From assembly GCA_018711525.1 (NCBI GenBank), contig DVIF01000078.1, forward strand, positions 1-39,936: a stretch of DNA of 39,936 nucleotides, in the 5' to 3' direction. Each line of letters begins with the position of its first letter. Position 1 is the stretch's first letter. The position numbers and the translations under genes are program-made. Positions 2,793-37,796 of this stretch are shown piece after piece. Below the pieces are notes generated by a model. It had not been told where the DNA came from. It ran no database searches and worked only from the letters and a program-made list of their open reading frames with translations. This DNA comes from Candidatus Ornithospirochaeta stercorigallinarum. Its GTDB lineage: Bacteria; Spirochaetota; Spirochaetia; Sphaerochaetales; Sphaerochaetaceae.

Positions 2793-4053
2793 CCTGTCTC
2801 ACATTACTGTGAGTCTGAGGATGGAGCTTCTTCTCACTCAAGACACCCGATGGTGCCAGTATCAGTGAGCTATCCCCGTTAGTCCAACGGTTAAGGATGT
2901 CTTTTCCCTCATCCTGCAGGTTTTTTGTCGCGTTCCTGTCCCTGTCATGATGCATGCCACAATTGCTGCACGTCCATTCACGGTCGGAGAGCTTCAGGTC
3001 GCGGTTTATCTCATGGCAAGAAGAGCATCTTTTACTTGAGGGAAAGAACTTATCTACTTTCACAAGCACCTTTCCCTTATCTTTCAGCTTGTAGGCAAGC
3101 ATGTTCCTCAGCATTCCATACCCGTTGTCGTATACGCTCTTGCCGAAATTCAGGGACTGAGACATGTGCCGGAGGTTTATGTCCTCCACTACGACGGCGT
3201 CAAATGCATCGGAGACTTTCCTGGAGAGCTTATGCAGGAAGTCCTTCCTCCTGTTTCTTGCCTTCTCATGAAGCTTCCCGATTCTGTGTTTCTGCTCCCA
3301 ATAATTCCTTGATCCGTACTGCATCCTCGAGAGCTTCCTCTGCTCCTTTGCAATCCTCTCCTCAATATTGCGGTACCAGCGGATGTCATCGGAGGTGATG
3401 TCGTTCTCCCCTGATGCGGAGACGACGAGGGATGGCATCGAGTAGTCGAAGGCTTCAAGCCTGTCGAACTTCTTCCTTTTCTCCATTGGCTCTGTATCCA
3501 CATCGAATGTAAGAGATACATAGAACTTTCCGCTTGCAGTCTCCTTTATCGTCGCATGCTTCATCCTCCACTCATCCGGTATGCCACGGTGGAGTATGAT
3601 GCGCACTCTTCCGAGTTTCGGAAGCTTGATGTAGTTCTCTGTATCACCCTTGTGGACTATCTCGATGTTGTTGTTCGTCCAGTTCGTTGTATATGACCTT
3701 TTGTCTTTTCCCTTCGCCCTGAACTTAGGCTTCCTGCCTTTTGCGAAGAGAAGTCTGCATGACATGTTCAGATTCAGCTGGGTGTTTGAAAGAGAGAGGG
3801 AATCGACCTCGCATAGGAATGGATTGTCCTTCTTCAGATGGGCTGGTGTTGTATTGAGAAGTTTTCCTTTATTCATCCTCTCATAGCTGATGCGTTCATC
3901 CAGCAGATGATTCCAGACGAAGCGGCAGCATCCGAATGTCTTCCAGATGAGGGTCTTCTACTCCATGGTAGGGTTTATACGGAACTCCATGCACCTGGAG
4001 ACGGTCACTTTCCCATCTATTCTCCCTCTCTTCTCGTCAACTGCTTCGGCCAT
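2782..4053 (-). pseudogene. tnpB: tnpB (IS200/IS605 RNA-guided nuclease) with in-frame amber stop
   Basis: Read from the ATG at 4051-4053, the frame gives a TnpB of 423 codons. It is interrupted once, by TAG at 3958-3960 (codon 32), where family members have Gln: the context is NPTME-stop-KTLIWKTFGCCRFVWNHLL. The downstream frame (from an ATG at 3876, 364 residues) keeps the RuvC acids (Asp144 in AFDYS, Glu231 in VVVEDINL, Asp313 in DRDRNA) and the zinc finger cysteines 284, 287, 303 and 306. Nuclease chemistry is therefore not lost by point mutation. Without the first 60 residues the protein is unlikely to bind its RNA. A fresh CAG-to-TAG change explains this best. The promoter ahead of 4053 looks intact. 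No tnpA lies beside it, and the expected right end is replaced by fic. Confidence 0.85.
2798..2813. repeat. Short perfect hairpin at tnpB 3' end
   Basis: CTCACA and TGTGAG form a 6-bp stem around a TTAC loop. The hairpin lies in the last codons of tnpB just before the fic start. Subterminal hairpins of this kind mark IS200/IS605 ends and omega-RNA 3' regions, so it may be what remains of the right end. It could also be chance. Confidence 0.35.
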
Positions 4054-4059
4054 GGTATG

Positions 4060-4088
4060 AGTATAGCATATAAATGCTTATAATACAA
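4060..4088 (-). promoter_or_regulatory. Predicted leaderless promoter of tnpB
   Basis: Read leftward: TTGTAT, 17 bases, TATACT preceded by TGC (extended -10), then six bases to the ATG at 4053. The transcript would begin at or within a base of the start codon. Confidence 0.5.
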
Positions 4089-4164
4089 AAAGATATATAA
4101 AAAGTTCTATACTTATTGATATACTAGTATTATTGATATATATAGAATCTGCGATTCCACATGA

Positions 4165-4662
4165 TTCATCACCATCTATGAAATTGAAGATGGTGACTTC
4201 TCATGGATTGAGGTTAAAATCAAATTTGAGATCGACACAAATCCTCCTCCAGAATTCACGTGTGAGTTTAAAACAATTCTCCTACCTTACCCATGTAAAA
4301 TCAGACTATATGATAAAAGTTCTCTATTCGCTGGGAAAATACATGCTGTTCTTTGTCGAGGATGGACTAGAGTCAAGGAAAGAGATCTCTATGATTACTT
4401 ATTCTATTTAGCAAGGAAAATAGAAATAAACATTCCTTATTTAAAAGCAAAACTTATAGACTCGAACTATATTAGAGAAACGGATGACCTGACAATTGAA
4501 TCACTAGTGTCACTTCTTGAACAGAAATTTAAAAGCATTGACTACAATCAGGCAAAAAAGGATGTCAGTCCATTCTTGAAAGATACTACTAGTCTGGAAT
4601 TGTGGGATGCAGATTTTTTCATCTCCGTCACACGACAATATCTTTTAAACAACATGTTTTGA
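4165..4662 (+). pseudogene. 3' half of an AbiEii/AbiGii-type nucleotidyltransferase toxin gene
   Basis: An open frame without a start codon runs from the TGA at 4162-4164 to the TGA at 4660-4662, giving 165 residues. It reads as the C-terminal half of the AbiEii toxin family: VKIKFEIDTNPPPEF, then LFAGKIHAVLCRGWTRVKER followed by DLYDYLFYLARK, and near the end QAKKDVSPFLKD and SLELWDADFF. The N-terminal nucleotidyltransferase half with the GS and DxD-type motifs is missing, as is the AbiEi antitoxin partner. The sequence before 4165 is AT-rich and unrelated. The remnant is AT-richer than its surroundings, which fits acquired DNA that has decayed, probably by deletion when the tnpB/fic segment arrived. 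The family call rests on remembered motifs. Confidence 0.75.
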
Positions 4663-4761
4663 ATGATGACATAAATGAATTTGAAATATTCATCAATGTA
4701 ATTTCAAGACCACGTATTCCATTCAGGTCATCTGAGCCTTCATGGTTAATCAAAAAATTAA

Positions 4762-6178: not shown

Positions 6179-7245
6179 TGTCTACTCCTTTTTCTGGTTA
6201 TCACAGCAGCTAAGGCCAGGCAGAATACAAGACCTGCCACCACACTCACCTTACCCATCATAGCAGGACCTGTGCCTGCAGAAGATGCAGCTCCCGCATT
6301 GTGGCTGAACGCAGCGCCGATGAGCATTCCGAGAACGGTAACAGCACTGTCGCTGTTTCCCTCCCCTGCCAGTATCAACTGTCTGAGCGGGCATCCCCCA
6401 AGCATCGCAGCAGAGAGGCCTACAAGTACCATCGAGAGGAAATTCCAGATGTGCTTATCATGGGCAACAGGCTGGTCTGCAAAACCAAGGTGGAAATTTC
6501 CTATAGCAATGTTCCCGATAAGAGAAGCAATGAAAATAAAGACAAAGCCTGTTATAAGGGTGAAATCCTTTATCAGGAAGATATCCCTTATACCACCTGC
6601 CATGCAGAGCCTAGTGCGCTGAGCAGCCATTCCGACGATGAGTGCGACAAGGAGGGATAGAACGATGGGAGCATGCATGCTGCCAGGCCCCGATTCGCTG
6701 AACTTTAAAAGTGATGGGAAGAAAAGAAGGATGAAAAGCAGGACGATGTTTATCAAAGGAAATACTGTGCCTTCAATTCTATCAACATCATGCGCCCTCC
6801 CTAAAGAAAATCCGTTATTAAGGAAAAACGAACCTATGGCGATTCCCGTAATGAACCCCAGAAGGCCCACAAAAGCATTCATATCCCCTGCTGCAAGGCG
6901 CAGGACCATCCTCAGAGGACAGCCCAGGAACACGAGGGCTCCCACCATCATGAAAAAGCCTAAGACAAAACGTAGGACAGGAGCACTTCCCGCTCTTGGC
7001 TTGAACTCCCCTTTGATGACGCTGATTATGAACGCTCCAAGGACGATTCCGATGATCTCAGGCCGCATATACTGGACGATTGCAGCATTATGAAGATTCA
7101 ATGCCCCTGAGATGTCACGGATGAAACATGCGATACAGAAACCCATGTTGCCGGGATTTCCAAAAACCATCAGTACGATCGCCACAACACCGATGAGTGC
7201 ACCTGTGACGGCCAAATTCCTTTTTTCCTTAATTGATGAAATCAT
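6175..7245 (-). CDS. yedE: YedE-family membrane protein, putative selenium transporter
   Basis: This 356-residue integral membrane protein has about nine or ten hydrophobic segments and the repeated GCPLR motifs of the YeeE/YedE family (GCPLRMVL and GCPLRQLI), with a further conserved cysteine in FCIACFIRD. The family is proposed to import a sulfur or selenium species when it sits with selD and yedF, as here. It is the first gene of the leftward operon. The ATG at 7245 has no Shine-Dalgarno site but has a -10 box (TAAGAT) exactly six bases ahead, so the mRNA is predicted to be leaderless. Confidence 0.88.
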   Translation of the reverse strand: MISSIKEKRNLAVTGALIGVVAIVLMVFGNPGNMGFCIACFIRDISGALNLHNAAIVQYMRPEIIGIVLGAFIISVIKGEFKPRAGSAPVLRFVLGFFMMVGALVFLGCPLRMVLRLAAGDMNAFVGLLGFITGIAIGSFFLNNGFSLGRAHDVDRIEGTVFPLINIVLLFILLFFPSLLKFSESGPGSMHAPIVLSLLVALIVGMAAQRTRLCMAGGIRDIFLIKDFTLITGFVFIFIASLIGNIAIGNFHLGFADQPVAHDKHIWNFLSMVLVGLSAAMLGGCPLRQLILAGEGNSDSAVTVLGMLIGAAFSHNAGAASSAGTGPAMMGKVSVVAGLVFCLALAAVITRKRSRQ

Positions 7246-7251
7246 GAATCA

Positions 7252-7280
7252 ATCTTACCATTATGTTTTTACACATGCAA
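7252..7280 (-). promoter_or_regulatory. Predicted leaderless promoter of yedE-selD operon
   Basis: Read leftward: TTGCAT (7280-7275), 17 bases, TAAGAT (7257-7252), six bases, ATG. Its -35 region interlocks with that of the divergent csd promoter, so the two polymerases would compete for one 58-bp gap. Confidence 0.6.
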
Positions 7281-7297
7281 TGAAAAAGAGTTATACT
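7268..7297 (+). promoter_or_regulatory. Predicted leaderless promoter of csd-xdhC unit
   Basis: TTTACA (7268-7273), 18 bases, TATACT (7292-7297), then six bases to the ATG at 7304. No Shine-Dalgarno site is present at usable distance. Confidence 0.6.
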
Positions 7298-7303
7298 ATC
7301 CCC

Positions 7304-8431
7304 ATGATCTACCTAGATAATTCCTCGACAAGCTTTCCCAAAGCACCAGGGGTAGCTGAAAGAGTATTCGAGTTTCTCTCAAAGAATGGAAGGAACATAA
7401 ACAGGACGACAAGCGGGAAGAGCTATGAGACTGTAAACGACCTGATAACCCTGAGGATGGATATCGCAGAGCTTATCGGACACGAGGGGGAGGAGACGGT
7501 CTTCCTAAACTCAGGTCTTACAGAGTCTATAAACACAGTCCTGCGTGGCCTCCTCTCAGAAGGAGACCATGTAATCACATCATCGACAGAGCATAATGCC
7601 GTCATGAGGACGATGGAATCACTGGGCATTGAATATTCTGTCACAAGAGCCGACAAGGACGGCAGGAACAATCTTGATGAGATTCCAAAGCTTAAGAGAA
7701 CCAATACAAAAGCAATAGTATTTTCTATCGCATCAAATGTGACAGGGGTGGTCGAAGATGTTGAAAAGCTCTCTTCGATAGCCGATGAATTGAAACTCCC
7801 CCTGATAATAGACACCGCACAGGCCCTGCCTTATGTGGATATAAAGATGGATGAGTGGGGAATAAGCGCTCTCTGTTTTTCTGGACACAAGGGGCTCCTG
7901 GGACCTGAGGGAACAGGAGGGTTCGCTACAACAAGGGAGTTTGCCCGGAGGCTAAAACCTCTATATACCGGAGGAACCGGAAGCTTTTCAGAGAGTTTCA
8001 AACAACCTGAGATCCTCCCCGACAAGTTTGAAGCAGGAACACGCAACATCCCAGGACTGTACGGTCTTTATGAGAGCGTAGGCTATGTCAAATCCCATCT
8101 GGAAAAGATCAGGGAAAAAGAGAGGAAGAACATTATGCATCTTCTCAGCGGACTACTCTCCATAGATGGTATAACAGTACACGGAGATAAAAGCGAAAAA
8201 AGGAATGCGGCAATCAGCATCAGTGCGAAAACAAAGGATAATGCAATCCTTGCAGAGCGTCTTCTTGAGCACCACCAGATAGAGACCAGGGTCGGTCTGC
8301 ATTGCGCCCCATCCGCACACAAAGTGCTCGGAACATATCCAGAGGGCACGATAAGACTATCCCCCGGGCCGTTCACAGAAAGCGATGAGATAGAAGAGAC
8401 CTTGAGGGCTATAAGGGAGGAGACAAGATGA
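7304..8431 (+). CDS. SelD-associated cysteine desulfurase (EF2568-type, class V aminotransferase fold)
   Basis: This 375-residue PLP enzyme has the Schiff-base lysine in CFSGHKGLLGPEG and the substrate Cys in RVGLHCAPSAHKVLGT. That last motif is typical of the cysteine desulfurase family found beside selD in genomes with selenium-dependent molybdenum hydroxylases. It would take sulfur or selenium from cysteine or selenocysteine and hand it on, in the cytosol. I chose ATG 7304 (MIYLDNSSTSFPK) because homologues begin at this strand and a -10 box lies six bases before it. ATG 7280 is in frame but falls inside the promoter. It is divergent from yedE and overlaps the next gene by ATGA. Confidence 0.87.
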   Translation: MIYLDNSSTSFPKAPGVAERVFEFLSKNGRNINRTTSGKSYETVNDLITLRMDIAELIGHEGEETVFLNSGLTESINTVLRGLLSEGDHVITSSTEHNAVMRTMESLGIEYSVTRADKDGRNNLDEIPKLKRTNTKAIVFSIASNVTGVVEDVEKLSSIADELKLPLIIDTAQALPYVDIKMDEWGISALCFSGHKGLLGPEGTGGFATTREFARRLKPLYTGGTGSFSESFKQPEILPDKFEAGTRNIPGLYGLYESVGYVKSHLEKIREKERKNIMHLLSGLLSIDGITVHGDKSEKRNAAISISAKTKDNAILAERLLEHHQIETRVGLHCAPSAHKVLGTYPEGTIRLSPGPFTESDEIEETLRAIREETR

Positions 8432-9369: not shown

Positions 9370-9386
9370 TAATTTTTCCATATATG

Positions 9387-9395
9387 TGCTATTCT
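9387..9395 (+). promoter_or_regulatory. Predicted leaderless promoter of the helicase gene
   Basis: An extended -10 box TGCTATTCT is followed by seven bases and ATG 9403. The -35 region is poor, as is common with extended -10 promoters. No Shine-Dalgarno site is present. Confidence 0.5.
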
Positions 9396-9402
9396 GTTTC
9401 TC

Positions 9403-11403
9403 ATGGGATATATGGAGAATCTTAATGAGGAGCAGAGGATTGCCGTCACAGCAGAGGACAGGCACATCCTGGTCCTTGCAGGAGCTGGAAGCGGAAAGAC
9501 CCGAGTGATAATCGCCCGGGCTGCATACCTCTTGGAAAAAGGGGTTCGCCCGGAGAAGATACTCATACTCTCCTTTACCAGGAAGAGCGCAAGGGAGATT
9601 GCAGAAAGGGTAAAGGGCGAGATAAGCATAAAGGAGAAGTCCTCACTCACAGGGCAGACATTCCATTCATGGTGCTATGAGCTTATAAAAAGCAATCCAG
9701 GCATATTCATGGAAAGCTCATTCTCCCTTATTGATGAGGATGATGCAGAGAGCATCTTCCGCTACACTTTTCCCCGTAATGATAAAGCCCCTCTCCCGAT
9801 AAAAGGCAAGGATGTACATGATGTATATTCATTCATGGTCAATACAAGGAAAAGCCTGAGTGAGGCAATCAGGGTGAAGCTCAGAAGGACATACCCCGAA
9901 GCTGAACTTGAAGAGTACATAAAAAGATATGGAGTGCACTACCGCAATGCAATAGAGGCATATGTAGGATACAAGAGGGAGCACAGGTATCTGGACTATG
10001 ATGACCTTCTGTATACGGTAGCTCGAACGCTAAGAACCAATGATAGAGCAAGAGGGTACATCGCCCGATGCTATGAGCATATCCTCATTGATGAGATGCA
10101 GGATACGAATCCACTACAGTATGACCTGCTGTCCTCTTTCTATGAGGACTCGCATATATATGCGGTAGGAGACGATGCACAGTCGATCTATGCCTTCCGT
10201 GGCTCTGATTTCAAAAGCATCCACAGCTTCACATCATTAGTCCCTGACTCGAAGGTATATAAGCTCAGGACGAATTACCGAAGCTACACAGAGATTCTTG
10301 ATGTCTCGAACTGGCTTCTCAGCCAGAGTCCGCTGCACTACGACAAGGAGCTCATAGCGAAGAAAGGAAGAAGCGAAAGAAAGCCCAGGCTGGTTCATAC
10401 AGACAATGGATACGAGGAGGCGAATTTCATTGTCGATAAAATCATAGAAGATATTGCAGACCAGGAGCACAGCTACATAGACCACATGGTCCTTTCCCGT
10501 ACCGTAATGGGGCTGAGGAAGGTGGAAGCAGTATGCATAGAGCGCGATATACCATACCGTCTATACGGAGGAAGCTCACTCATGGAATCAAAACACATAA
10601 GGGATGTCATCTCCCCTATCCGTGTCGTATTGAACATCCATGACGAGATCGCATGGATGCGCTTTCTGACACTTTTCAGAGGAATCGGTGAGAAAAGCGC
10701 AATGAAGTATGTTGAAGCCGTAAGAGGTAATGAATATACCGAGGATGCTATAAAATCATTGAAGCTGAACAAGGCTCCCGGCATCATCATCGACACACTT
10801 GAAAGGATAAACGAGAACAGGAAAAGCGCACTGAGTGCGGTGAAAGCATCGTATAAAGCTCTGGAGGAGAGACTTGCAGTACTCTACAAGGATGAATGGG
10901 CCTACAGGAAAAAGGACTTTGAAGTGCTTTTCTCCCTTGCCGAGAGAGCGAAGAATCTCGAGTCGTTCATATCGGATTTCGTGCTATCCCCTCGTCTTGA
11001 AGAGACGATGAGAAGAGATGAAAGCACCGATGATTATGTAATCCTCTCGACAATCCACTCTGCAAAAGGACTTGAGAGCAGTATCTGTTTCGTCCTTGAT
11101 GTCTCACCTTATGCCTTCCCGACAGAAAGAGCATATGCGGATGGCGCTGATGAGGTCGAAGAGGAGCGCAGATGCCTTTATGTCGCCCTCACAAGGGCAA
11201 AAGATGATCTATTCATCATGAGGAACACCAAAAGCGTAAGGGCATACGAGCTGGAAGGATCGAAGTGCCCCTATTTCCTCAATAATTTCGATTTGAACCT
11301 GGTTACGATGGTGACTGTTGAACATGATAATTCCATCGAGGGGGATTTCTTCAATGGAGAAATGAGCGACTACAGCATACTCGATGACATGGACTTCACA
11401 TGA
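9403..11403 (+). CDS. UvrD/PcrA/Rep-type superfamily 1 DNA helicase
   Basis: This 666-residue ATP-dependent 3'-5' helicase shows all main SF1A motifs in order: Q-motif LNEEQRIAV (7-15), Walker A AGAGSGKT (26-33), TFHSW, Walker B as DEMQDTNP (DExQ), DAQSIYAFRGSD, LRTNYRS, TIHSAKGLE and VALTRAKD. At 666 residues it is shorter than typical UvrD/PcrA (about 720). The C-terminus ends soon after the last motif and lacks the long tail that contacts RNA polymerase in PcrA/UvrD, so a Rep-like or specialised role is possible. It starts at ATG 9403 next to a -10 box. The TetR-type gene follows with only 10 bases between them. Confidence 0.9.
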   Translation: MGYMENLNEEQRIAVTAEDRHILVLAGAGSGKTRVIIARAAYLLEKGVRPEKILILSFTRKSAREIAERVKGEISIKEKSSLTGQTFHSWCYELIKSNPGIFMESSFSLIDEDDAESIFRYTFPRNDKAPLPIKGKDVHDVYSFMVNTRKSLSEAIRVKLRRTYPEAELEEYIKRYGVHYRNAIEAYVGYKREHRYLDYDDLLYTVARTLRTNDRARGYIARCYEHILIDEMQDTNPLQYDLLSSFYEDSHIYAVGDDAQSIYAFRGSDFKSIHSFTSLVPDSKVYKLRTNYRSYTEILDVSNWLLSQSPLHYDKELIAKKGRSERKPRLVHTDNGYEEANFIVDKIIEDIADQEHSYIDHMVLSRTVMGLRKVEAVCIERDIPYRLYGGSSLMESKHIRDVISPIRVVLNIHDEIAWMRFLTLFRGIGEKSAMKYVEAVRGNEYTEDAIKSLKLNKAPGIIIDTLERINENRKSALSAVKASYKALEERLAVLYKDEWAYRKKDFEVLFSLAERAKNLESFISDFVLSPRLEETMRRDESTDDYVILSTIHSAKGLESSICFVLDVSPYAFPTERAYADGADEVEEERRCLYVALTRAKDDLFIMRNTKSVRAYELEGSKCPYFLNNFDLNLVTMVTVEHDNSIEGDFFNGEMSDYSILDDMDFT

Positions 11404-20213: not shown

Positions 20214-20243
20214 TTGCAATTCTGCCTGATTCTTAATTAACAT
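20214..20243 (+). promoter_or_regulatory. Predicted leaderless promoter of nifS-thiI
   Basis: TTGCAA (20214-20219), 18 bases, TAACAT (20238-20243), then seven bases to ATG 20251. There is no Shine-Dalgarno site. Confidence 0.5.
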
Positions 20244-20250
20244 ATGTCCT

Positions 20251-21378
20251 ATGCTTAATTATTTCGACTATGCAGCGACATCTCCCATGAGCCAGAGGGC
20301 CGTCACAAGTTATGTTGAATGTGCAAAGGCCTTCCCCCTCAATCCTTCATCAATCCACAGAGGAGGAAGGGAGGCACATGAGGAGCTTGAAAAAGCAAGA
20401 ATGAAGGTTTCTTCAATCCTTGGGATAAGACCTGAGCAGACCATATTCACCAGTGGTGCCACAGAAGCGATAAACATAGTGTTTTCCTCCCTTCTATGGC
20501 AGAAGTCACCCGGAAGGGTCCTTATCTCACGCATCGAGCATGATGCAATCAAGGCGTTCATCCCACTTTTGAAGGACAAGGGATGGGATGTCGTAATGCT
20601 GAAAGCGAAAAAAGGATTCGTAGACCCTGAGGAAGTCAAAGAAAACCTAAGCCCGGAGACGAGGCTTGTGGCAGTGATGGCTGTCAACAACGTCAATGGA
20701 GCTATAGAGCCCACAAATGAGATTTCATCTGTAATCAGGGAATACGAGAAGACGATAAAACATAAGATAGTCTTCTTCTCCGACAGCGTACAGGCCCTTG
20801 CAAAGACGACACTCGAGCTTGAGAAAAGCGGTGTGGATGCAGCCTCATTCTCCGCACATAAGATCTCAGGCCCTCGCGGAGTCGGAATGCTATACATGAG
20901 AAGCAGGAACCTCATAAGGCCGCTCTCCTCAGCGGGAGGACAGGAGATGGGAATGCGAGGGGGAACGGAGAACCTTGCGGGGATAGTCTCTTTCGCATCC
21001 GTACTTGAGGAGGCCTACGAGAAAAGGAAAGAGAAGGAAGAGAGAGTCAAAGCCCTCTCGGAAAAGATGAAAAGGGAATTCGAGTCCATCGGCCTTCAGC
21101 TCAACAGCGAGGGGAACACAAGCCCGTATATCATAAATGTCTCCACCCCGTTTCCAAGCGAGGTCTTTTCGAGGATGCTTGACGACAAAGGGTTTTCCGT
21201 ATCATCCGGTTCCGCATGCTCGAATAATGCGAAAAAGGGAGAGAACATCATAGAAGCGATGGGATATGGTGCAAAAAGAGCGGGATCTTCAGTAAGGATC
21301 TCCCTCTCGGATGAGACAGAGGATATCGAGGTCGATAATCTGATAACAGCAATCAAGGAGATAGCAAGTGGAAAGTAA
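20251..21378 (+). CDS. Cysteine desulfurase (NifS/IscS type, ThiI partner)
   Basis: This 375-residue PLP enzyme opens with NYFDYAATSPMS, has TSGATEAIN, the Schiff-base lysine in SFSAHKISGPRGVGML, and the sulfur-carrying Cys in SSGSACSNNAKK. It removes sulfur from cysteine as a persulfide. It overlaps thiI by 11 bases, like the NifZ-ThiI pairs of Firmicutes, so it probably serves tRNA 4-thiouridine synthesis. It is the second desulfurase in the window and clearly differs from the selD-linked one at 7304. Confidence 0.9.
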   Translation: MLNYFDYAATSPMSQRAVTSYVECAKAFPLNPSSIHRGGREAHEELEKARMKVSSILGIRPEQTIFTSGATEAINIVFSSLLWQKSPGRVLISRIEHDAIKAFIPLLKDKGWDVVMLKAKKGFVDPEEVKENLSPETRLVAVMAVNNVNGAIEPTNEISSVIREYEKTIKHKIVFFSDSVQALAKTTLELEKSGVDAASFSAHKISGPRGVGMLYMRSRNLIRPLSSAGGQEMGMRGGTENLAGIVSFASVLEEAYEKRKEKEERVKALSEKMKREFESIGLQLNSEGNTSPYIINVSTPFPSEVFSRMLDDKGFSVSSGSACSNNAKKGENIIEAMGYGAKRAGSSVRISLSDETEDIEVDNLITAIKEIASGK

Positions 21379-25052: not shown

Positions 25053-25932
25053 TTATCTTATAGCTCCTGAGCACCCTGCTCTCTATAAATGATGTGAAAT
25101 CCTTGTAGTTTCCCCTTTTAAGCGCTATGAAGTACGCACCATCGAACTCACCTTTGTCCCCCAGGGAGAATAGTGGAGGATAGATGTTGTTCCTCAGCAG
25201 CTCACCTGAGAGGACGAGGTAGGAAAAGAACGACGGGTACTTTTCAAAAGGACTTATCCTCTCAAGCTCACCATAGAGCATAACACCAGAGACTATGCCG
25301 TTCAGAGCCTTCCAGCTCTCATACTGGGAGAGCAGCGTCTCCATCTGCACATCGACACGGACCTTGTTCTTGCCCCTTACCTCCCTCAGGCTGTATCCAT
25401 CCCTGTATGTCATGGACCCCACATCATCGATCCCCTGCATAAGACGTGAATATGCAAGACGGAAATCCTTATCGGTCCAAGGCTCCTTCATGTCTATCAA
25501 GGACAGAAGCACAGAGCGGAAGTTGACGATCAGGAGGTGGGTCTCAAGTGAGACGGATGGAACGATCTTTCCTGAGAGTATCCTCTTTACATCCCTTTCC
25601 TCGACTATGATCTTCTCCTTGTCGAACAGGTAAAGGAGGTTCGATAGGATTATATGATTCATCCTCCCCTCACTCTTCATCTGAGAGGAGACCGGATGGA
25701 GTATCTGGAACTCAAGAAGCCTGTCGACATCAACACCTCCCGGGCGGATATCCATGTTCTTGAAATGCCTCAGGACCCTTCCGTCCCTCGGGCGTGGAGT
25801 ATCTTCAGGTATGGTCCACGACCAACCCATCTTTATCGCCCCGTCTATCCTGCCTTCATTGCAGAGATATCTGATCCTTCTGTCGGAAAGCCCCCATTTT
25901 TTTGCCGCCTGGCTCACGTCTATGTATTTCAT
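25045..25932 (-). CDS. HTH protein with degenerate Fic-like domain
   Basis: This protein is 295 residues. The N-terminus (KYIDVSQAAKKWGLSDRRIR, ending SWTIPEDTPRP) is a MerR/excisionase-like DNA-binding domain. The rest follows the Fic fold: LMQGIDDVGSMTYRDGYSLR resembles the Fic segment before the flap, and ELERISPFEKYPSFFSYLVL lies where HPFxxGNGRxxR should be, followed by LLRNNIYPPLF. The catalytic His is Ser and GNGR is gone, so AMP transfer is not expected. It is most simply a regulator with a pseudo-Fic sensing domain. ATG 25932 is preferred to the one 12 codons upstream because homologous HTH domains begin there; a GGAG is 13 bases ahead. It heads the operon with the D-aminoacylase and is divergent from the flavoprotein gene. 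Confidence 0.7.
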   Translation of the reverse strand: MKYIDVSQAAKKWGLSDRRIRYLCNEGRIDGAIKMGWSWTIPEDTPRPRDGRVLRHFKNMDIRPGGVDVDRLLEFQILHPVSSQMKSEGRMNHIILSNLLYLFDKEKIIVEERDVKRILSGKIVPSVSLETHLLIVNFRSVLLSLIDMKEPWTDKDFRLAYSRLMQGIDDVGSMTYRDGYSLREVRGKNKVRVDVQMETLLSQYESWKALNGIVSGVMLYGELERISPFEKYPSFFSYLVLSGELLRNNIYPPLFSLGDKGEFDGAYFIALKRGNYKDFTSFIESRVLRSYKINV

Positions 25933-26022
25933 GTTTTTAATTTTACTCCGATTCTGGAATATAAACAATAAAAATATTTATTTTAAATAATTAATTTTAT
26001 AATCAAAATCCTTTCTTATATC

Positions 26023-26074: not shown

Positions 26075-27355
26075 ATGGATAAGTTTGATGCTGTAATAGT
26101 CGGATCCGGTCCAGCAGGGATGGGTGCGGCATTCTCAATACTCAAAAGAAAGAAAGACGCAAGCATATTGATGCTCGACAAGAGGCCTTACAGTACGGGA
26201 GGAATGCGCAACGACTGTAAGATGAACTTCACCTTCCCTATTGGTTTCCCTCTGGAATACTGGGATGAAGAGACTGCTGACAGATATCTTGAGGAGGTCA
26301 CCGATTTCCTTAAGCCGAACATACTCTCAAAGAGCAACATAGGTACATATCAGGCAAGGGCGGAACGCCTTGGATGCTCCCTCCTCGAAATAAAGCAGAC
26401 ACATCTTGGAACTGATGGCGGGCTTGAACTCATCAAAGAGCTGCTTGCCAAACTAAAAGAGAGCGGTGTAGAGCTCTCCCTCGGAGAGGAGATGGTAGGC
26501 ATCGACAACAAGAGGAAGGTCATCACCACCGACAAGAGGGAGATAGGATACAAGAGCATCCTTATCGCACCTGGACGCCAGGGCTTCCATTTCCTTCAGG
26601 ATGTGATGCATCAGCTTGACATCAATTACATGGACAACATCATCGATGTCGGAATAAGGGTTGAGACAAGACTTGAGCACTACCCTATCGTAAAGGATTA
26701 CTACGATCCGAAGTTCTACTTCAAGGAAAAGGTGCGTACATTCTGCACGAACAGCGGAAACGCACATGTCGTAAAAGAGAAATATGCGACAGAGCGCGGC
26801 GACATATGGTACAGCGTCAACGGACATGCATTCAAAGCTGATGAGAGCAAGAACAACGGACTGGTGAACTTCGCGCTTTTAAAGACAGTCAGATTCACAG
26901 AACCTCTTGCATCAGGTCAGACCTTTGCAGAACACCTAGGGCTCCTTGCCTCCCTGATGGGAGGTGGAAAGCCCTTGATGCAGAGGGTCGGAGACTTCCG
27001 CCTGGGAAGGAGAAGCAAGGTAGCTACATTCAACGGAGACCTCTATGATTTCAAACCGACTCTCGATGCCTGCCCGTCAGACATATCGCTGGCGATGCCG
27101 AGCAAGATCCTTAGATACATCTGGTCGGCAATGAAGAACCTGGATACCATCGTACCTGGAGTCCTCCATCCTTCCACAATCATGTACTACCCGGAGATAA
27201 AGCTCTATGCAAACAAGCCGGAGTACAAGGATGAGCACTTCCAGGTATGCGAAGGTGTGTTCTTCGCAGGAGACGGCGCCGGCACGAGCCGTGGAATCAC
27301 AGGAGCGTGGGCAAGCGGAATCAGAGCAAGCCTCGGAATGCTTGAATACTTCTAG
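26075..27355 (+). CDS. FAD-dependent dehydrogenase of the COG2509 type
   Basis: This 426-residue flavoprotein has an N-terminal FAD-binding GSGPAGMGAAF (residues 11-21), a conserved patch STGGMRNDCKMNF, and the late FAD motif FFAGDGAGTSRGITGAWASG that also defines COG2509 proteins. These are uncharacterised cytosolic oxidoreductases common in anaerobes. The ATG is preceded by GAGGAAG. The TAG stop overlaps the convergent esterase stop in the shared tetramer CTAG. Confidence 0.82.
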   Translation: MDKFDAVIVGSGPAGMGAAFSILKRKKDASILMLDKRPYSTGGMRNDCKMNFTFPIGFPLEYWDEETADRYLEEVTDFLKPNILSKSNIGTYQARAERLGCSLLEIKQTHLGTDGGLELIKELLAKLKESGVELSLGEEMVGIDNKRKVITTDKREIGYKSILIAPGRQGFHFLQDVMHQLDINYMDNIIDVGIRVETRLEHYPIVKDYYDPKFYFKEKVRTFCTNSGNAHVVKEKYATERGDIWYSVNGHAFKADESKNNGLVNFALLKTVRFTEPLASGQTFAEHLGLLASLMGGGKPLMQRVGDFRLGRRSKVATFNGDLYDFKPTLDACPSDISLAMPSKILRYIWSAMKNLDTIVPGVLHPSTIMYYPEIKLYANKPEYKDEHFQVCEGVFFAGDGAGTSRGITGAWASGIRASLGMLEYF

Positions 27356-28134: not shown

Positions 28135-28163
28135 TTGATAGAGATATTAAAGATTCCTATAAT
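28135..28163 (+). promoter_or_regulatory. Predicted leaderless promoter of the phosphodiesterase gene
   Basis: TTGATA (28135-28140), 17 bases, TATAAT (28158-28163), then six bases to ATG 28170. This is close to consensus and the clearest leaderless start in the window. Confidence 0.7.
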
Positions 28164-28169
28164 GCCTAC

Positions 28170-28706
28170 ATGAAGTTTTTAATTTTTTCAGATATACACG
28201 GCTGCTCAGACAGTGCTGAATTCATAGTAGGAAAGACAGAGGTGGAGAAGCCTGACAAGGTTCTTATCCTAGGAGACATACTCTACCATGGACCGAGGAA
28301 CGATATACCGCATAACTACGAGCCCAAGGCTGTAATAGCCGAGCTTGAGAAAATCGCACCGAAGATCCTTGCCGTAAGGGGGAACTGTGAGGCTGAAGTA
28401 GACCAGATGGTGCTTTCGTTCCCATGCCTCAGCCAGGAGGCCCTCGTCTATGCAGACGGAAACACCATATTCATGACACATGGCCATATATACAACGAGG
28501 AGAACAGACCTAAGTGCGGCTATACGCATTTCTTCAGCGGACATACCCACCTGCACGGGCTGAAAAAGAAAGACGGCATAACATTCCTCAACCCCGGTTC
28601 GATTTCAATCCCGAAAGGCGGGGAGGGTAGAAGCTATGCCATCTATATCGATGGAAAGATTGAGATACGAAGAATGGAGGATGACTCAATCATATTGGAA
28701 ATCTGA
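28170..28706 (+). CDS. YfcE-type metallophosphodiesterase
   Basis: This 178-residue calcineurin-like phosphoesterase has the metal motifs in order: SDIHG (DxH), LGDILYHGPRN (GDxxxxG), VRGNCEAE (GNCE), MTHGHIY (GH) and FSGHTHLHG (GHTH). Length and motifs match E. coli YfcE, a metal-dependent phosphodiesterase of unsure physiological substrate. Its end overlaps the convergent histidine kinase gene by 17 bases. The start abuts a -10 box and has no Shine-Dalgarno site. Confidence 0.9.
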   Translation: MKFLIFSDIHGCSDSAEFIVGKTEVEKPDKVLILGDILYHGPRNDIPHNYEPKAVIAELEKIAPKILAVRGNCEAEVDQMVLSFPCLSQEALVYADGNTIFMTHGHIYNEENRPKCGYTHFFSGHTHLHGLKKKDGITFLNPGSISIPKGGEGRSYAIYIDGKIEIRRMEDDSIILEI

Positions 28707-30216: not shown

Positions 30217-30911
30217 TACTTATCTATCTTTTTTCCTGCAAAACGGTAGCCATAACCCCTGACGGTCTCTATCCAGGCCTCCTTCTTCAGCTTGGCCCTG
30301 ATATTCTTTATATGAGTGTCTACGACGCGCTCATAACTTTCAAAACTGTAGTCGAAACATTCTTCAAGGATCTGAGCCCTTGAAATAAGGTTCGGAGAGT
30401 TGGATGCAAGATATGCGACAATCCTCCACTCTGCAGCAGTAAGAGTGATCTCATCCCCGTCTATTGTGAGCTTATGCTCATCCTCATCAATCACCATGAC
30501 GCTCTCCCCCAGTGAATAGGAACGGGAAGAGCTCTGAGGCCCTTGCACATCTGAGCGTCTGAAAAGCGCCTCGACGCGGAGAACCAGCTCCTTTGGACTG
30601 AAAGGCTTGGTAATATAATCATCACAGCCAAGCTCAAAGCCCATGATCTTATCGGATTCATCGATCCTCGCAGTAAGGAATATGATTGGAAGCCTCTGGT
30701 TCTTGCTCCTGACTTCCTTCACGAAGGAGAATCCATCTCCATCAGGAAGCATTATGTCCTGTATCAGCATATCAGGAACACGTTCCTGGAAAGCTGCCCT
30801 CGCCTCTTCAAGCGTACCATACCCTTTCACATCGAATCCGGAAAGCTCAAGATACTGGACTACTCCGTTACGTATAACCTCATGATCTTCTACAATGTAA
30901 ATCAGTTTCAT
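30216..30911 (-). CDS. OmpR/PhoB-type response regulator
   Basis: This 231-residue protein starts at ATG 30911 (MKLIYIVEDHEVIRNG). The receiver domain has the acidic pair ED, phospho-acceptor Asp in MLIQDIMLPDGDGF, Thr in FLTARID and Lys in ITKPFSPKEL. The C-terminal winged helix (LTAAEWRIVAYLASN, SYERVVDTHIKNIRAKL) binds DNA. It is first in the operon with the kinase. An upstream in-frame extension of 30 codons is rejected because the family begins at this Met and a promoter lies across it. Confidence 0.92.
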   Translation of the reverse strand: MKLIYIVEDHEVIRNGVVQYLELSGFDVKGYGTLEEARAAFQERVPDMLIQDIMLPDGDGFSFVKEVRSKNQRLPIIFLTARIDESDKIMGFELGCDDYITKPFSPKELVLRVEALFRRSDVQGPQSSSRSYSLGESVMVIDEDEHKLTIDGDEITLTAAEWRIVAYLASNSPNLISRAQILEECFDYSFESYERVVDTHIKNIRAKLKKEAWIETVRGYGYRFAGKKIDK

Positions 30912-30918
30912 ATGAATA

Positions 30919-30947
30919 ATATTATTGATGAAATGGATATTAGGCAA
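30919..30947 (-). promoter_or_regulatory. Predicted leaderless promoter of the two-component operon
   Basis: Read leftward: TTGCCT (30947-30942), 17 bases, TAATAT (30924-30919), seven bases, ATG 30911. No Shine-Dalgarno site. Confidence 0.5.
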
Positions 30948-32555: not shown

Positions 32556-32577
32556 GGCCACCTCATGAGAGATGGCC
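32556..32577 (-). terminator. Intrinsic terminator of trxA
   Basis: On the minus strand GGCCATCTC pairs with GAGGTGGCC (9 bp with one G-U) around a 4-base loop, followed by TGTTTTTATTTT. It lies 32 bases after the trxA stop. Confidence 0.8.
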
Positions 32578-32608
32578 CTGACACTAAAACCGAAAGGAAT
32601 ACATCAAG

Positions 32609-32917: not shown

Positions 32918-32976
32918 TTTTCTTTTCTCCTATGACCATAAGATAATACATAGCTGGAAAAAAGAAAGTGATGATG

Positions 32977-33645
32977 TCACCTAAGGCTCTCAGAGGCCCT
33001 CTGAGAGAGCTTTCCCATATCCAGGATCTCAAGAGAGCCTCTTTTCACTGCGACTTCCCCCTCCTTCTCCAGATATGAGAGGGTACGGCTGATCACCTCC
33101 CTTCTCGAACCGAGGTTACGTGCGATCTCCTCATGCGTAAGCTTCAGGCAATGATTTCCTTTAAGTTCCGCCTCCTCGCACAAATAAGCTGCAAGGCGGG
33201 AATCAAGACGCTTGTTGAGTATCTGGTCTATAAGCCACATCAAATCGCTCAGATGGGAAGAAAGAATCGAGCAGATGTAGTTCGAGACTTTTATATTCTC
33301 CTTTCTGATGCGGTCGACAACCAAAGTCGGAACCAATATGCATTCGCTATCCTCCTCCGATATGACGTTCACACCGAAATCGATATCCCTTAAAAGGCAG
33401 GAGGCCGTAAATATGCATAGATCACGGCTAAAGAATCTAAAAAGAGTGATCTCCCTTCCATCTTCTGAAAGCGAGAACGCCTTGAGCTGACCAGACTTCA
33501 CGATGATGAAGCCCTGGCAGTCCTGCCCTGGGTTGACAGCCTCCCCCTTTTTAAAGCTCATGCTCCTGCTGTTGTTTTCAATCTCCAATCTCTCTTTTCC
33601 TGAAAGAAAAGAATAGAAAGGGATGTAGTTTTCATTATCGCCCAT
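32977..33645 (-). CDS. Crp/Fnr-family transcriptional regulator
   Basis: This 222-residue protein has a cyclic-nucleotide-like beta-roll (GFIIVKSGQLKAFSLSEDGR, EITLFRFFSRD) and a C-terminal helix-turn-helix (LTHEEIARNLGSRREVISRT). It lacks the N-terminal four-cysteine iron-sulfur cluster of FNR. Cysteines do occur at GQDCQG and in the pair of DLCIFTASCLL, a pattern shared by redox-linked members of this superfamily. It is divergent from the GH2 glycosidase, with interlocked promoters, so control of that gene is plausible. The start ATG 33645 has no Shine-Dalgarno site, and a TATCAT box is six bases away. Confidence 0.85.
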   Translation of the reverse strand: MGDNENYIPFYSFLSGKERLEIENNSRSMSFKKGEAVNPGQDCQGFIIVKSGQLKAFSLSEDGREITLFRFFSRDLCIFTASCLLRDIDFGVNVISEEDSECILVPTLVVDRIRKENIKVSNYICSILSSHLSDLMWLIDQILNKRLDSRLAAYLCEEAELKGNHCLKLTHEEIARNLGSRREVISRTLSYLEKEGEVAVKRGSLEILDMGKLSQRASESLR

Positions 33646-33651
33646 AAATAA

Positions 33652-33657
33652 ATGATA
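33652..33657 (-). promoter_or_regulatory. -10 box for leaderless Crp/Fnr-type gene
   Basis: TATCAT read leftward, six bases from ATG 33645. The -35 region is weak. It shares the 45-base divergent gap with the GH2 promoter. Confidence 0.4.
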
Positions 33658-33676
33658 TCAGCAAGTCCCTTCAAAT

Positions 33677-33684
33677 GCTATAAT
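33677..33684 (+). promoter_or_regulatory. Extended -10 promoter of the GH2 gene (leaderless)
   Basis: TGCTATAAT ends at 33684 and is followed by six bases and ATG 33691. The consensus -10 with TG extension compensates for a poor -35. The Crp/Fnr-type regulator could bind in this gap. Confidence 0.6.
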
Positions 33685-33690
33685 CAGGAC

Positions 33691-35370
33691 ATGCTTGGAA
33701 ACATACTTGGTGAAAATCCACGTCCTGACATGAAAAGAAAAGGAACCATTGTCCTCAACGGGTTATGGGAATATGGAGTCAACAACGGCAAGGGAGAGGA
33801 ATTCACAACCGAGATCCTAGTTCCTTTCCCTCCTGAGTCAGACCTCAGCGGCATAAAAAGAACACTGATGCCGGATGAGACAGCATACTACCGCAAGAAC
33901 ATTCCTTTGGAAAAAGAAGAAGGATTCAGATATATAATCACATTCCTTGCTGTGGACTACTATGCAACCCTTTTCATAAACGGAAGGGAGGTCCTTAAAC
34001 ATGAAGGAGGATACCTTCCCTTCTCCTATGACATTACAGATCATCTGAGGGAGAATGGTTTCGAGGTGAAACTCTACGTCAAGGATCCGACCGATACCGA
34101 GGCTATAGAAAGGGGGAAGCAGACCCTGAAACCCCATAGGATATGGTACCCCGCACAAAGCGGAATCTGGCAGAGCGTCTATATGGAGAAAGTCCCTGAA
34201 GACTATATTGAGAAGATTCTGGTCACTCCAGACTACGATGACTCATCTTTCACCATCCTACCGGTATCAAGCAGAAGGGAGGGAGGAAAGGCAAGCATCA
34301 TTATCGAGGGCAGAGAGTTTGAAATGAACATGGATGCAATGAACATCCTCAGAATCGATGATCCCCATCCATGGACTCCAGAGGATCCATACATATACCA
34401 TTTCACAATCAAATACGGCAGAGATGAGGTTGAAAGCTATACAGCACTCAGGAAATTCTCCATCGTAGTTGATGACAAGGGGATGAAACGCCTTGCTCTC
34501 AACAACAGCCCTTATTTCCATCATGGCATTCTCGACCAGGGATATATGAAACACAGCCTCATGACATATGAGAGTGACGAGGCAATCATAAAAGACCTCA
34601 AGATGCTTAAGAGCATGGGTTTCAACACGATAAGGAAGCATATAAAGATCGAGAGTCCGAGATGGTACTACCACGCAACGAGGCTGGGATTCATAGTGTG
34701 GCAGGACATGGTGAACGGAGGGGCTGCCTACAATGATTTCGCCGTCACCCTTCCACTCTTCACCTCATCGTTTTTAAGCGACAGGAAAAGCCATCTCCTT
34801 TCAAGGAGGAGTGAAGAGGAAAAAATGAAGTACATCAGCTTCATCAAGGAGAGCATCATGTACCTTTATTCAGTGCCGGCAATCGGGATGTGGTGCATCT
34901 TCAATGAAGGATGGGGACAGTTCAACTCTTCAGAGATTTTAAAAGAGATAAAGCAGATTGATGATACAAGGACCATAGACATAACATCGGGCTGGCATGA
35001 CCAGGGGGATGGGGACTTTCTTTCAAAACACGTCTATTTCCGTCCATACAGATTCAAAAAGGATAAGAGAGGAAGATGTGTCATACTCTCCGAGTTCGGA
35101 GGAATCGGGATGGGAGAGGAGAAAGAGAGCAAAGCAAGAAAATTCACCTACAAGGATGTCTCCTCAGAGGAAGCGCTTCTTAATGAGATAAGGAAGATGT
35201 ATGAGCGTGATGTGATTCCATACATTGAAAAAGGCCTTTCGGCTTCCATCTACACACAGCTGAGTGATGTAGAACAGGAGACGAACGGCCTTGTCACATA
35301 TGACAGGAAGAAAATAAAAGTCTCTGTACAGGGGATGAGGGAGTTAAGCTCCCGCATCGTCACACATTGA
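33691..35370 (+). CDS. Glycoside hydrolase family 2 type beta-glycosidase
   Basis: This 559-residue protein is from ATG 33691. An N-terminal jelly-roll sugar-binding domain (LNGLWEYGV, FLAVDYYATLFINGREV, PAQSGIWQSVYME) leads through an immunoglobulin-like domain to a TIM barrel. The acid/base is in WCIFNEGWGQF, and the nucleophile is likely the Glu in ILSEFGGIG. The set fits beta-galactosidase/beta-glucuronidase/beta-mannosidase-type enzymes; the sugar is not predictable. No signal peptide, so it acts on imported oligosaccharides in the cytosol. The C-terminus overlaps ychF by 11 bases. Confidence 0.87.
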   Translation: MLGNILGENPRPDMKRKGTIVLNGLWEYGVNNGKGEEFTTEILVPFPPESDLSGIKRTLMPDETAYYRKNIPLEKEEGFRYIITFLAVDYYATLFINGREVLKHEGGYLPFSYDITDHLRENGFEVKLYVKDPTDTEAIERGKQTLKPHRIWYPAQSGIWQSVYMEKVPEDYIEKILVTPDYDDSSFTILPVSSRREGGKASIIIEGREFEMNMDAMNILRIDDPHPWTPEDPYIYHFTIKYGRDEVESYTALRKFSIVVDDKGMKRLALNNSPYFHHGILDQGYMKHSLMTYESDEAIIKDLKMLKSMGFNTIRKHIKIESPRWYYHATRLGFIVWQDMVNGGAAYNDFAVTLPLFTSSFLSDRKSHLLSRRSEEEKMKYISFIKESIMYLYSVPAIGMWCIFNEGWGQFNSSEILKEIKQIDDTRTIDITSGWHDQGDGDFLSKHVYFRPYRFKKDKRGRCVILSEFGGIGMGEEKESKARKFTYKDVSSEEALLNEIRKMYERDVIPYIEKGLSASIYTQLSDVEQETNGLVTYDRKKIKVSVQGMRELSSRIVTH

Positions 35371-36466
35371 ACTTGAAGAACATGATATCCCCGTCCTGAA
35401 CGACGTACTCCCTTCCTTCAAGGCGGAGCTTTCCAGCTTCCTTGACTTTCAGCTCAGAGCCGTATTTGAAGAGGTCCTCAGCGTTATATACCTCTGCCTT
35501 GATGAATCCCTTCTCGAAATCGGAGTGTATGATACCAGCACATTCTGGAGCTTTTGCCCCTTCCCTGAACGTCCATGCCCTGTCCTCATCCTTACCTGCA
35601 GTGAAGAATGTCCTCAGACCAAGTGTCTTGTAAGCCGCTCTGATAAGAGGATTGAGGCCGCTTTCACTCAGGCCTACCGACTCCAGGAACTCCTGACGCT
35701 CCTCAGCACTCTCAAGGGAGGCTATCTCACTTTCAATCTTTCCGCAGATGGAGATGCACTGGCTTCCCTCCTTCTCTGCTATCTCCTTCACGATCTTCAC
35801 GTACTCGTTATCGCTACCGATCGAGTCCTCGTCGACATTGCAGACATAGATCACAGGTTTCATCGTAAGGAGATGGAGGTCGTAGATTGCCGCCTTCTCA
35901 TCATCATCGGTTATGATGCTTCTTGCACTCCTACCATCGGAGAGCGCCTTCATGAGCTTCTCATAGATTGGAAGAAGATACTCCGTCTCCTTCTGTGCCT
36001 CCTTGCTGACCCTGGCCATCTTCCCCTGCTTCTGATACCTCTTTTCAACGGTATCATAATCAGCAAGAGCGAGTTCTATCTCTATCGTCTCGATATCCCC
36101 CCTAGGGTCTATCTTGTTGTTGACGTGTACGATATCGGGATCATCGAAGCATCTTACGACATGTGCAATGACCCCTACCTCCCTTATCGATGCAAGGAAA
36201 CGGTTGCCAAGCCCCTCGCCTTTGCTTGCACCCTTTACAAGCCCTGCGATATCCACAAATTCAACAGTCGCAGGAATCTTCCTCTCAGGAGGAATAAGCT
36301 CGGCAATCCTATCAAGACGGCTATCTGGAACAGCTACGATACCAACGTTCGGATCTATGGTACAGAATGGATAATTCGCCGCCTCTGCAGGAGCTGATGT
36401 AACAGCTGAGAAGATTGTCGATTTTCCGACATTTGGAAGTCCGACTATTCCACAATTCAAACCCAT
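35360..36466 (-). CDS. ychF: Redox-regulated ATPase/GTPase YchF
   Basis: This 368-residue Obg-family P-loop protein has G1 in GIVGLPNVGKSTIF (residues 6-19), G3 in DIAGLVKGASKGEGLGN, the altered G4 typical of YchF (VCNVDE instead of NKxD, giving ATP preference), and the C-terminal TGS domain (GAKAPECAGIIHSDFEKGFI). It binds ribosomes and influences stress responses. GAGGTG precedes the ATG by six bases. It is divergent from hflX, another ribosome-associated GTPase. Confidence 0.96.
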   Translation of the reverse strand: MGLNCGIVGLPNVGKSTIFSAVTSAPAEAANYPFCTIDPNVGIVAVPDSRLDRIAELIPPERKIPATVEFVDIAGLVKGASKGEGLGNRFLASIREVGVIAHVVRCFDDPDIVHVNNKIDPRGDIETIEIELALADYDTVEKRYQKQGKMARVSKEAQKETEYLLPIYEKLMKALSDGRSARSIITDDDEKAAIYDLHLLTMKPVIYVCNVDEDSIGSDNEYVKIVKEIAEKEGSQCISICGKIESEIASLESAEERQEFLESVGLSESGLNPLIRAAYKTLGLRTFFTAGKDEDRAWTFREGAKAPECAGIIHSDFEKGFIKAEVYNAEDLFKYGSELKVKEAGKLRLEGREYVVQDGDIMFFKFNV

Positions 36467-36508
36467 ATTTTCACCTCAGAGTTGTACTTTATCACAAATA
36501 ACCCCAGA

Positions 36509-36537
36509 TGGACAGTGCCCATCAAGCTCACTATAAT
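36509..36537 (+). promoter_or_regulatory. Predicted leaderless promoter of hflX
   Basis: TGGACA (36509-36514), 17 bases, TATAAT (36532-36537), then eight bases to ATG 36546. This is near-consensus. A TTG codon at 36537 overlaps the -10 box and so cannot be the start if this promoter is right. Confidence 0.65.
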
Positions 36538-36545
36538 TGCAAAAG

Positions 36546-37796
36546 ATGGAAGAATACGACGTACTGCTTATCACAACCAATGAGCCGGGGGTGAATCCTA
36601 GAAAAGCATACCATAAGGAGATGGAGATAAGAAGCCTACTCGACACACTGGGCTTGAAAGTGGCTTTTCACATCCCATTCACAGTAAAAGATGAAAATCC
36701 GAATACATACATCGGTCCCGGACAGGCCGAAGAGGCCGCACGTATCGCTTCAGAGACCGGATGCAGCTCTGTTGTCATAAATGCATTCATCACAGCACGT
36801 GAAGAACTGAATCTTGAGAAGATATTCTCACTTGAGGTGATGGACAGGGAAAATGTGATCCTCTCGATATTCCTGAGGAACGCACATTCGAAAGAAGCTC
36901 TTCTCCAGATAGAGAAAGCACAAGCGGAATACCTCAGGCCAAGGCTGAGAGGAAGGATCCTGAATCTCGAACAGCAGAGAGGAGGAGTAAGAGGAGCGAA
37001 AGGTCTTGGAGAGAGGATGATCGAACTGGACAGGAGGAAACTGGACAGGAGGATCAACGCAATAGATAAGGAGCTTGAAAAGATAGAAAGGGTCAGAGAG
37101 ACCCAGAAAAAAGACAGGACGGAGAACTCCGTCTTCTCATTTGCCCTCGTAGGCTATACCAACGCAGGAAAAAGCTCGATAATGAACGCCCTTACAAAAG
37201 CAGACGTACTTATAGAAGACAAGCTCTTTGCGACACTGGATACGACCACCAGGAAACTCAGGCTGGAAAATGGAGAGACTGTGCTTCTCTCCGATACTGT
37301 CGGCTTCATAGAAGACCTTCCCCACCGTCTCATAAGTGCATTCTCCTCTACCTTGAATGAAGCACTCTCTGCTTCTGCACTTATCATAGTCCAGGACCTT
37401 GAAAGCCCCAACAGTTACGAAAACTTCCTCACCACGCTCAATACCATCAAAGAGCTGGGAGCGGAAGACAAGATAAAACTGCTTGTGCTTAACAAAGTCG
37501 ACAGGGAATATGACGACTACAATACGATAAGGCTCAAGAACTATGGTTACGAGTATGTCGTTACCAGTGTCAAAGAGAACATCGGGATGGTGGAACTTGT
37601 CGAGAAGCTGGAAAGAATCACAGATGAAAATGAAACGACGATAGAACTAAAGACACCACTTGACGGCTCAATCTTCAGCAAAATAAGAAAAGGAGACACC
37701 ATAATCTCCACTACATACAAGGAAGATGCACTTTACATCAAGATAAGAATAAAGAAGAGCTACATCCCCTACTACGGGAAATTAAATTTAGAGTGA
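36546..37796 (+). CDS. hflX: Ribosome-associated GTPase HflX
   Basis: This 416-residue protein is from ATG 36546. It has an N-terminal HflX domain (YIGPGQAEEAARIA), the coiled-coil linker with RGGVRGAKGLGERMIELDRR near 160-180, the G domain with G1 VGYTNAGKSSIMNAL, G2 DTTTRKL, G3 SDTVGFIEDLPHRLI and G4 LNKVD, and a C-terminal extension. It splits stalled or hibernating 70S ribosomes after stress. The TTG at 36537 would add three residues but lies in the predicted promoter. It is convergent with the beta-barrel-like gene across a terminator hairpin. Confidence 0.93.
   Translation: MEEYDVLLITTNEPGVNPRKAYHKEMEIRSLLDTLGLKVAFHIPFTVKDENPNTYIGPGQAEEAARIASETGCSSVVINAFITAREELNLEKIFSLEVMDRENVILSIFLRNAHSKEALLQIEKAQAEYLRPRLRGRILNLEQQRGGVRGAKGLGERMIELDRRKLDRRINAIDKELEKIERVRETQKKDRTENSVFSFALVGYTNAGKSSIMNALTKADVLIEDKLFATLDTTTRKLRLENGETVLLSDTVGFIEDLPHRLISAFSSTLNEALSASALIIVQDLESPNSYENFLTTLNTIKELGAEDKIKLLVLNKVDREYDDYNTIRLKNYGYEYVVTSVKENIGMVELVEKLERITDENETTIELKTPLDGSIFSKIRKGDTIISTTYKEDALYIKIRIKKSYIPYYGKLNLE

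Follow-up and report, generated by a model that had tools for sequence, protein, structure and literature searches.

Predicted leaderless starts at sigma-70-type promoters in an uncultured gut spirochaete

Do genes whose start codon lies a few bases after a -10-like hexamer produce mRNAs that begin at the AUG itself? This question is raised by contig DVIF01000078.1 of Candidatus Ornithospirochaeta stercorigallinarum (assembly GCA_018711525.1), whose genome comprises 1,929,630 bases in 92 contigs and is 82.9% complete. The window, meaning the whole stretch analyzed, is positions 1 to 39,936 of this contig (C66 in the genome). A preliminary description made from the sequence alone listed ten sites in the window where a TATAAT-like hexamer precedes the ATG and no Shine-Dalgarno (SD) site is present, and suggested that the lineage uses two initiation modes. 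Our analysis indicates that, in about one fifth of promoter-proximal genes, a sigma-70-type promoter is very probably placed so that transcription starts at the AUG itself.

The genome-wide sample consisted of the window and 60 further stretches (984,555 bases, 51% of the genome, GC 46.7%). We called 936 genes in it by a hexamer coding score alone; as the starts were called without upstream input, upstream signals could not bias their positions. After low-scoring and edge genes were dropped, 808 remained: 389 promoter-proximal or first genes (divergent neighbor or a gap of at least 60 bases), 361 operon-internal genes (gap of at most 25) and 58 intermediate ones. The DNA upstream of genes is 66% A+T.

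The preliminary description had proposed counting TANNNT before first-in-operon starts against internal starts, and in this sample the count gave the peak it foresaw, at -13/-12 before first genes and not before internal ones. Hexamers matching TATAAT at no fewer than five of six positions stood there in 43 of 389 promoter-proximal genes, against a background in these genes of about 4.6 per position between -45 and -17. The corresponding counts were 3 of 361 for operon-internal genes and 43 of 6388 for internal Met codons. A two-motif model in which positions were not preset placed AGGAGG at -10 to -14 and TATAAT at -12 (0.37) or -13 (0.33) among first genes. Among operon-internal genes, its second motif broke up into other words at scattered positions. 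In this model 327 of 361 operon-internal genes were SD-led, in line with the earlier claim of normal SD sites inside operons, as were 265 of 389 promoter-proximal genes. Two initiation modes are thus supported, with TATAAT at -12/-13 restricted to promoter-proximal genes.

At a leaderless posterior above 0.9, the model assigned 67 of 389 first genes (64 in a refit), 7 of 58 intermediate and 6 of 361 internal genes, while shuffles of the 127 non-SD first genes gave 4.8 +/- 1.8 (maximum 8 in 30 runs). This control replaced an earlier shuffle (53.7 at >0.5; 11.2 at >0.9), which overstated the false positives because it erased SD sites in SD genes as well. An above-threshold SD score was found for 3% of the high-confidence leaderless set, 94% of SD genes and 4% of shuffles. 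Start codons did not discriminate (91 ATG, 6 TTG and 5 GTG in 102 leaderless genes), SD genes being mostly ATG too. Leaderless genes were commoner among divergent genes (48/208) than co-directional ones (19/181; p = 0.001), and divergent spacing was shorter (median 97 versus 150).

The boxes also have the geometry of promoters. When genes were aligned on the -10 box, TTGACA-like hexamers peaked at a 17-base spacer (23/102 versus 3.7 expected), and an extended TGN preceded the box in 32 of 102 genes (7.0 expected). A pyrimidine immediately preceded the ATG in 59 of 67 leaderless genes, as against 125 of 217 SD genes (p = 2e-6). As this held for boxes at -12 (32/36) and at -13 (25/28) alike, the preference tracks the ATG and not the -10 box. 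Together with the -35 spacing, it makes the A of the ATG the probable +1.

Transcription could instead begin 1-5 bases before the ATG, giving mRNAs with very short leaders. Spacings of 6 and 7 bases are about equally common, hflX has 8, and in a genome of family f18 (G320) the boxes range from -15 to -12, all of which fits such leaders. The sharp box peak at -12/-13 in the genome itself, and the pyrimidine directly before the ATG at both spacings, make this unlikely, though it keeps a real minority chance; for translation, a leader of 1-5 bases would hold no SD site in any case. Far less probable is an AT-rich translation enhancer, for instance one bound by ribosomal protein S1, within a longer leader and without any promoter at this position. 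S1 sites might underlie an AT-rich bias between about -20 and -10, as the cited part of PMC5397173 notes, but an enhancer does not account for the sharply defined spacing, for a -35 partner 17 bases from the box, for the extended -10 or for the lack of boxes at operon-internal genes. Equally improbable, in our judgment, are true starts lying further downstream of ordinary promoters. The start calls are computational only, yet orthologues agree on the start position, and an in-frame downstream start with an SD site within 30 codons was found for 0 of 67 leaderless genes (10 of 217 SD genes). Moreover, Pfam domains begin at residues 1-4 in four proteins of the window (the phosphodiesterase, csd, nifS and response regulator products described below), so that a later start is unlikely for these.

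Within the window, a -10-like hexamer precedes the ATG by 6-8 bases at each of the ten listed sites, although the hexamers of yedE, nifS and the response regulator are weak and only loosely TATAAT-like. A fair -35 at 17-18 bases had been ascribed to most of them, and six match TTGACA at four or more of six positions. The metallophosphoesterase gene, listed earlier as a phosphodiesterase (PDE), has the reported TTGATA-17-TATAAT-6-ATG at 28135..28172 (+). The other five are a class-V aminotransferase gene (csd-like; TTTACA-18-TATACT-6-ATG, 7268..7306, +), a nifS-like gene whose leaderless start is probable from site inspection and the motif model (TTGCAA-18-TAACAT-7-ATG, 20214..20253, +), hflX, leaderless or nearly so (TGGACA-17-TATAAT-8-ATG, 36509..36548, +), an OmpR-type response regulator gene (RR; TTGCCT-17-TAATAT-7-ATG, 30909..30947, -) and a UvrD-type helicase gene, judged by site inspection (TGC-TATTCT-7-ATG, 9390..9405, +), which has an extended -10 besides its -35. 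For RR, the site script picked AATAAT/9, and alignment with orthologues gave TAATAT/7. The remaining four sites combine a -35 that matches only three of six positions with an extended -10; they belong to the yedE-like sulphur transport gene (TGG-TAAGAT-6-ATG, 7243..7257, -), the Crp/Fnr gene (TGA-TATCAT-6-ATG, 33643..33657, -), the GH2 gene (TGC-TATAAT-6-ATG, 33679..33693, +) and tnpB (TTGTAT-17-TATACT-6-ATG, 4051..4088, -). The Crp/Fnr and GH2 genes are divergent, with their ATGs 45 bp apart. As had been stated, there is no SD-like word in the last 18 bases, except at GH2, where AGGA ends one base before the ATG, too near to serve as an SD site.

The tnpB site needs a further correction. Its TATACT box is present, but the frame from 4053 holds a stop, located between that apparent leaderless start and the open frame from 3876 (TnpB-like frame, 2782-4053), so the site precedes a broken gene; the intact part encodes OrfB_IS605 and Cas12f1-like TNB domains. 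Because our gene caller overlooked yedE, set the start of csd at 7148 and counted the helicase gene among the intermediate ones, we assessed these three manually, and csd and yedE by orthologues as well. Beyond the ten, the motif model proposes a candidate leaderless start at 25932 (25930..25945, -), with a posterior of 0.94 and its hexamer at -13; it diverges from an SD-led gene at 26075. The ychF-like gene offers a contrast: it has an SD-led start (GAGGTG, 36464..36485, -) and diverges from hflX across a common intergenic region.

We then compared orthologues in up to 30 genomes of the genus per gene, scoring as a box any TANNNT with at least four of six matches at -14 to -12. Loci were dropped if identity was less than 40%, if the match began beyond residue 12 or if they lacked a usable start, namely, per 30 loci, 2 for PDE, 18 for GH2, 1 for hflX, 1 for RR, 3 for csd, 2 for yedE, 17 for the histidine kinase and none for Crp or ychF; these counts leave out loci without a query match (a match was present for Crp in 5 of 30, for ychF in 20, for yedE in 26 and for csd in 29). 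The box was present in 21 of 28 usable orthologues of PDE (at -13/-12), 24/26 of csd, 18/24 of yedE, 21/29 of hflX, 6/12 of GH2, 11/29 of RR and 5/5 of Crp, the last being all those present in the 30 GH2 loci. The remaining upstream DNA varies among orthologues while the distance of the box largely stays. Of the controls, ychF had the box in 0/20 and an SD-like site in 20/20, in spite of the intergenic region that it shares with hflX, and an operon-internal histidine kinase gene had the box in 0/13. For hflX, the closest public match found, at 84% identity, belongs to an uncultured Spirochaetaceae bacterium, whereas the second reaches 38%; on this ground we assign the genome to class Spirochaetia.

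The RR orthologues, which are mutually non-independent, keep the arrangement in another form. TTG-17-xAnnnT occurs at the leaderless distance in 24 of 29 (shuffle mean 0.2), and TTN-16/17-xAnnnT-6..8-ATG, a loose pattern fitted after looking, in 29 of 29 (shuffle mean 3.5, maximum 8/29). Among the 18 of 29 without TANNNT, 10 have GAAACT and 4 GACACT or AAAACT (loci L233-L251), with TTGCC or TTGAAA 17 bases upstream and an unchanged distance to the ATG. Such promoters are perhaps activator-dependent or served by an alternative sigma factor.

This largely gene-by-gene conservation is the most interesting feature of the finding. It would fit a choice between leaderless and SD starts that is stably inherited, and not a product of drift, for most genes examined, given that csd orthologues go down to 41% identity and that hflX and ychF keep opposite modes across one intergenic region; the leaderless spacing that RR keeps even with a GAAACT -10 would suggest a special promoter class or activator, with leaderless output under selection. 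We advance this view tentatively, rating it at somewhat less than an even chance.

The signal extends beyond the genome. TATAATN6ATG exceeded its reversed control in 24 of 24 genomes of the genus, including the genome itself, where 47 matches stood against 10 in the control. Six identical copies of TATAATACACATATG lie near contig ends of this genome (G000, contigs C30, C32, C34, C40, C89 and C90) and probably represent a mobile element that carries a leaderless gene and whose repetition interrupted the assembly; as they are likely one element, the 47 matches correspond to about 42 distinct ones. Across 118 genomes of the class, grouped by family, we compared TATAATN6-7ATG with TATAATN9-10ATG. 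The excess was clear (p < 0.01) in f1 (780/524), f18 (7154/4792), f12 (95/43), f11 (233/163), f22 (809/583), f23 (130/47) and f7 (81/48), and weak in f24 (116/87) and f27 (30/15). By the same comparison it was not significant in f8, f19 and f21 and absent in f20 (3244/3133), f14, f25 and f26. In f1 it appeared in 12 of 13 genomes, G280 going in the opposite direction. For f18, where boxes reach -15, the N9-10 control is conservative.

Outside the class, 41 of 178 genomes from six families, a non-random choice, gave 10453/9910 in all; among these families the excess was small in f55 (1031/896; p = 0.002) and marginal in f35 and f33. Some genomes outside that sum, such as G190 (120/76) and G088 (351/256), also had an excess, so no boundary of the trait at the class is established. 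Applied to G034 (f12), the gene pipeline yielded 30 of 121 genes with the loose cut and 12 with the strict one, and a blunter peak; for G320 the numbers were 12 of 86 and 6. In G320 (loci L152-L171) the boxes are often TGCGCTANAAT, 6-9 bases before the ATG and without an SD site, so that mRNAs of f18 may usually begin between 0 and about 3 bases ahead of the start codon. It is scarcely credible that TANNNT arose by chance in AT-rich intergenic DNA and that sites near ATGs were merely chosen, for although the upstream DNA is AT-rich and other positions each have boxes at a rate of about 1%, 67 genes stand against 4.8 in shuffles, orthologues keep the box, and the AT-rich genome G116 (f35, GC 27%) gave 0 of 201.

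Several observations weigh against leaderless starts as the explanation. A -35 match at 16-18 bases was found in only 29 of 102 genes, and the spacer peak was smaller in the refit (18/97 at 17 bases, 7 more at 18). The histidine kinase control has an SD-like word in only 4 of 13 orthologues, so a missing SD site alone proves nothing. Orthologues also switch mode, with SD-like sites in 3 of 28 for PDE and 4 of 24 for yedE. A class-wide search beyond the genus matched PDE in 23 of 78 genomes, and in three of the four relatives read there are SD-like words and no TANNNT at -15 to -11; the fourth (family f11, 46% identity) has a weak box in a leaderless arrangement, TTGCCA-17-TAGTGT-6-ATG. Thus, the conserved mode of PDE largely ends near the genus. 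RNA structure after the start showed no difference between the leaderless and SD classes (p = 0.18), an exact pattern search did not find the 16S 3' end (anti-SD) in this incomplete genome, and the hflX gap of 8 bases leaves room for a leader of about 2 bases. Finally, the cut at >0.5, which assigns 97 of 389 first genes and 119 of 808 genes overall, is kept as an upper estimate only, because shuffles of non-SD genes still yield 22. From these and the stricter counts, we estimate the predicted leaderless share at 16-25% of promoter-proximal genes and 8-15% of all genes.

What we observe is a promoter geometry, a missing SD site, a restriction of this pattern to first genes and, in several genes, a geometry kept among orthologues. 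From these we infer the position of +1 and the mode of ribosome binding. In our model, a housekeeping sigma-70-type promoter would sit so that RNA polymerase begins at the A of the AUG, and the resulting mRNA would have neither a 5' leader nor an SD site. A ribosomal subunit that had previously taken up initiator tRNA would directly recognize the 5'-terminal AUG of this mRNA, a mode described, in the part of PMC10783764 cited here, for leaderless mRNAs elsewhere. Downstream operon cistrons and most other first genes would use an ordinary SD start.

With this, an uncultured gut lineage with an intermediate-GC genome joins the bacteria making large-scale use of leaderless starts, and its promoters are clear enough for 5' ends to be predicted with almost single-base precision. 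Leaderless starts can be misplaced by gene finders that look for SD sites, and the largely conserved modes allow one to ask whether such starts are selected for. Leaderless starting is known from other bacteria, and what is new, as our evidence supports well, is its use in this lineage; among the literature titles searched, none concerned leaderless starts in it.

In Mycobacterium and Deinococcus, the -10 box lies immediately before the start, and like them this genome would have two initiation modes. Their leaderless mRNAs are cited in PMC9581028 and PMC5243855, the former also quoting a GeneMarkS-2 prediction of leaderless use in 21.6% of bacterial species. The preliminary description took leaderless genes to be known from Actinobacteria and Deinococcus-Thermus, which is too narrow, since spirochaete cases have been published (PMC3160421, PMC5243855); we compare our results with the portions of these two papers that bear on them. 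In Leptospira interrogans, dRNA-seq (PMC5243855, 2017) located primary transcription start sites (TSS) at most 10 bases from the start in 430-450 genes and exactly at the start in 184 (30 degrees C) or 170 (37 degrees C), and leaderless transcripts were reported as common. Those starts are experimental, whereas ours are predicted from sequence; no promoter motif but that of sigma-54 is identified in the cited portion, whereas here a clear sigma-70-type box has a fixed geometry. Zheng et al. 2011 (PMC3160421) found leaderless genes in 6 of 18 Spirochaetes genomes, at a mean of 3.9% (1.8-6.9%) of genes. The share predicted here (8-15% of all genes) would lie above that range, by a different method that makes the two not strictly comparable. 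Our candidates resemble the TA-led genes of that study, which have a TA-like signal about 10 bases before the start alongside SD-led genes. Its high-GC groups show TANNNT, a signal whose middle positions carry little information, whereas here, at 46.7% GC, the box is TATAAT-like and often accompanied by a -35 or TGN.

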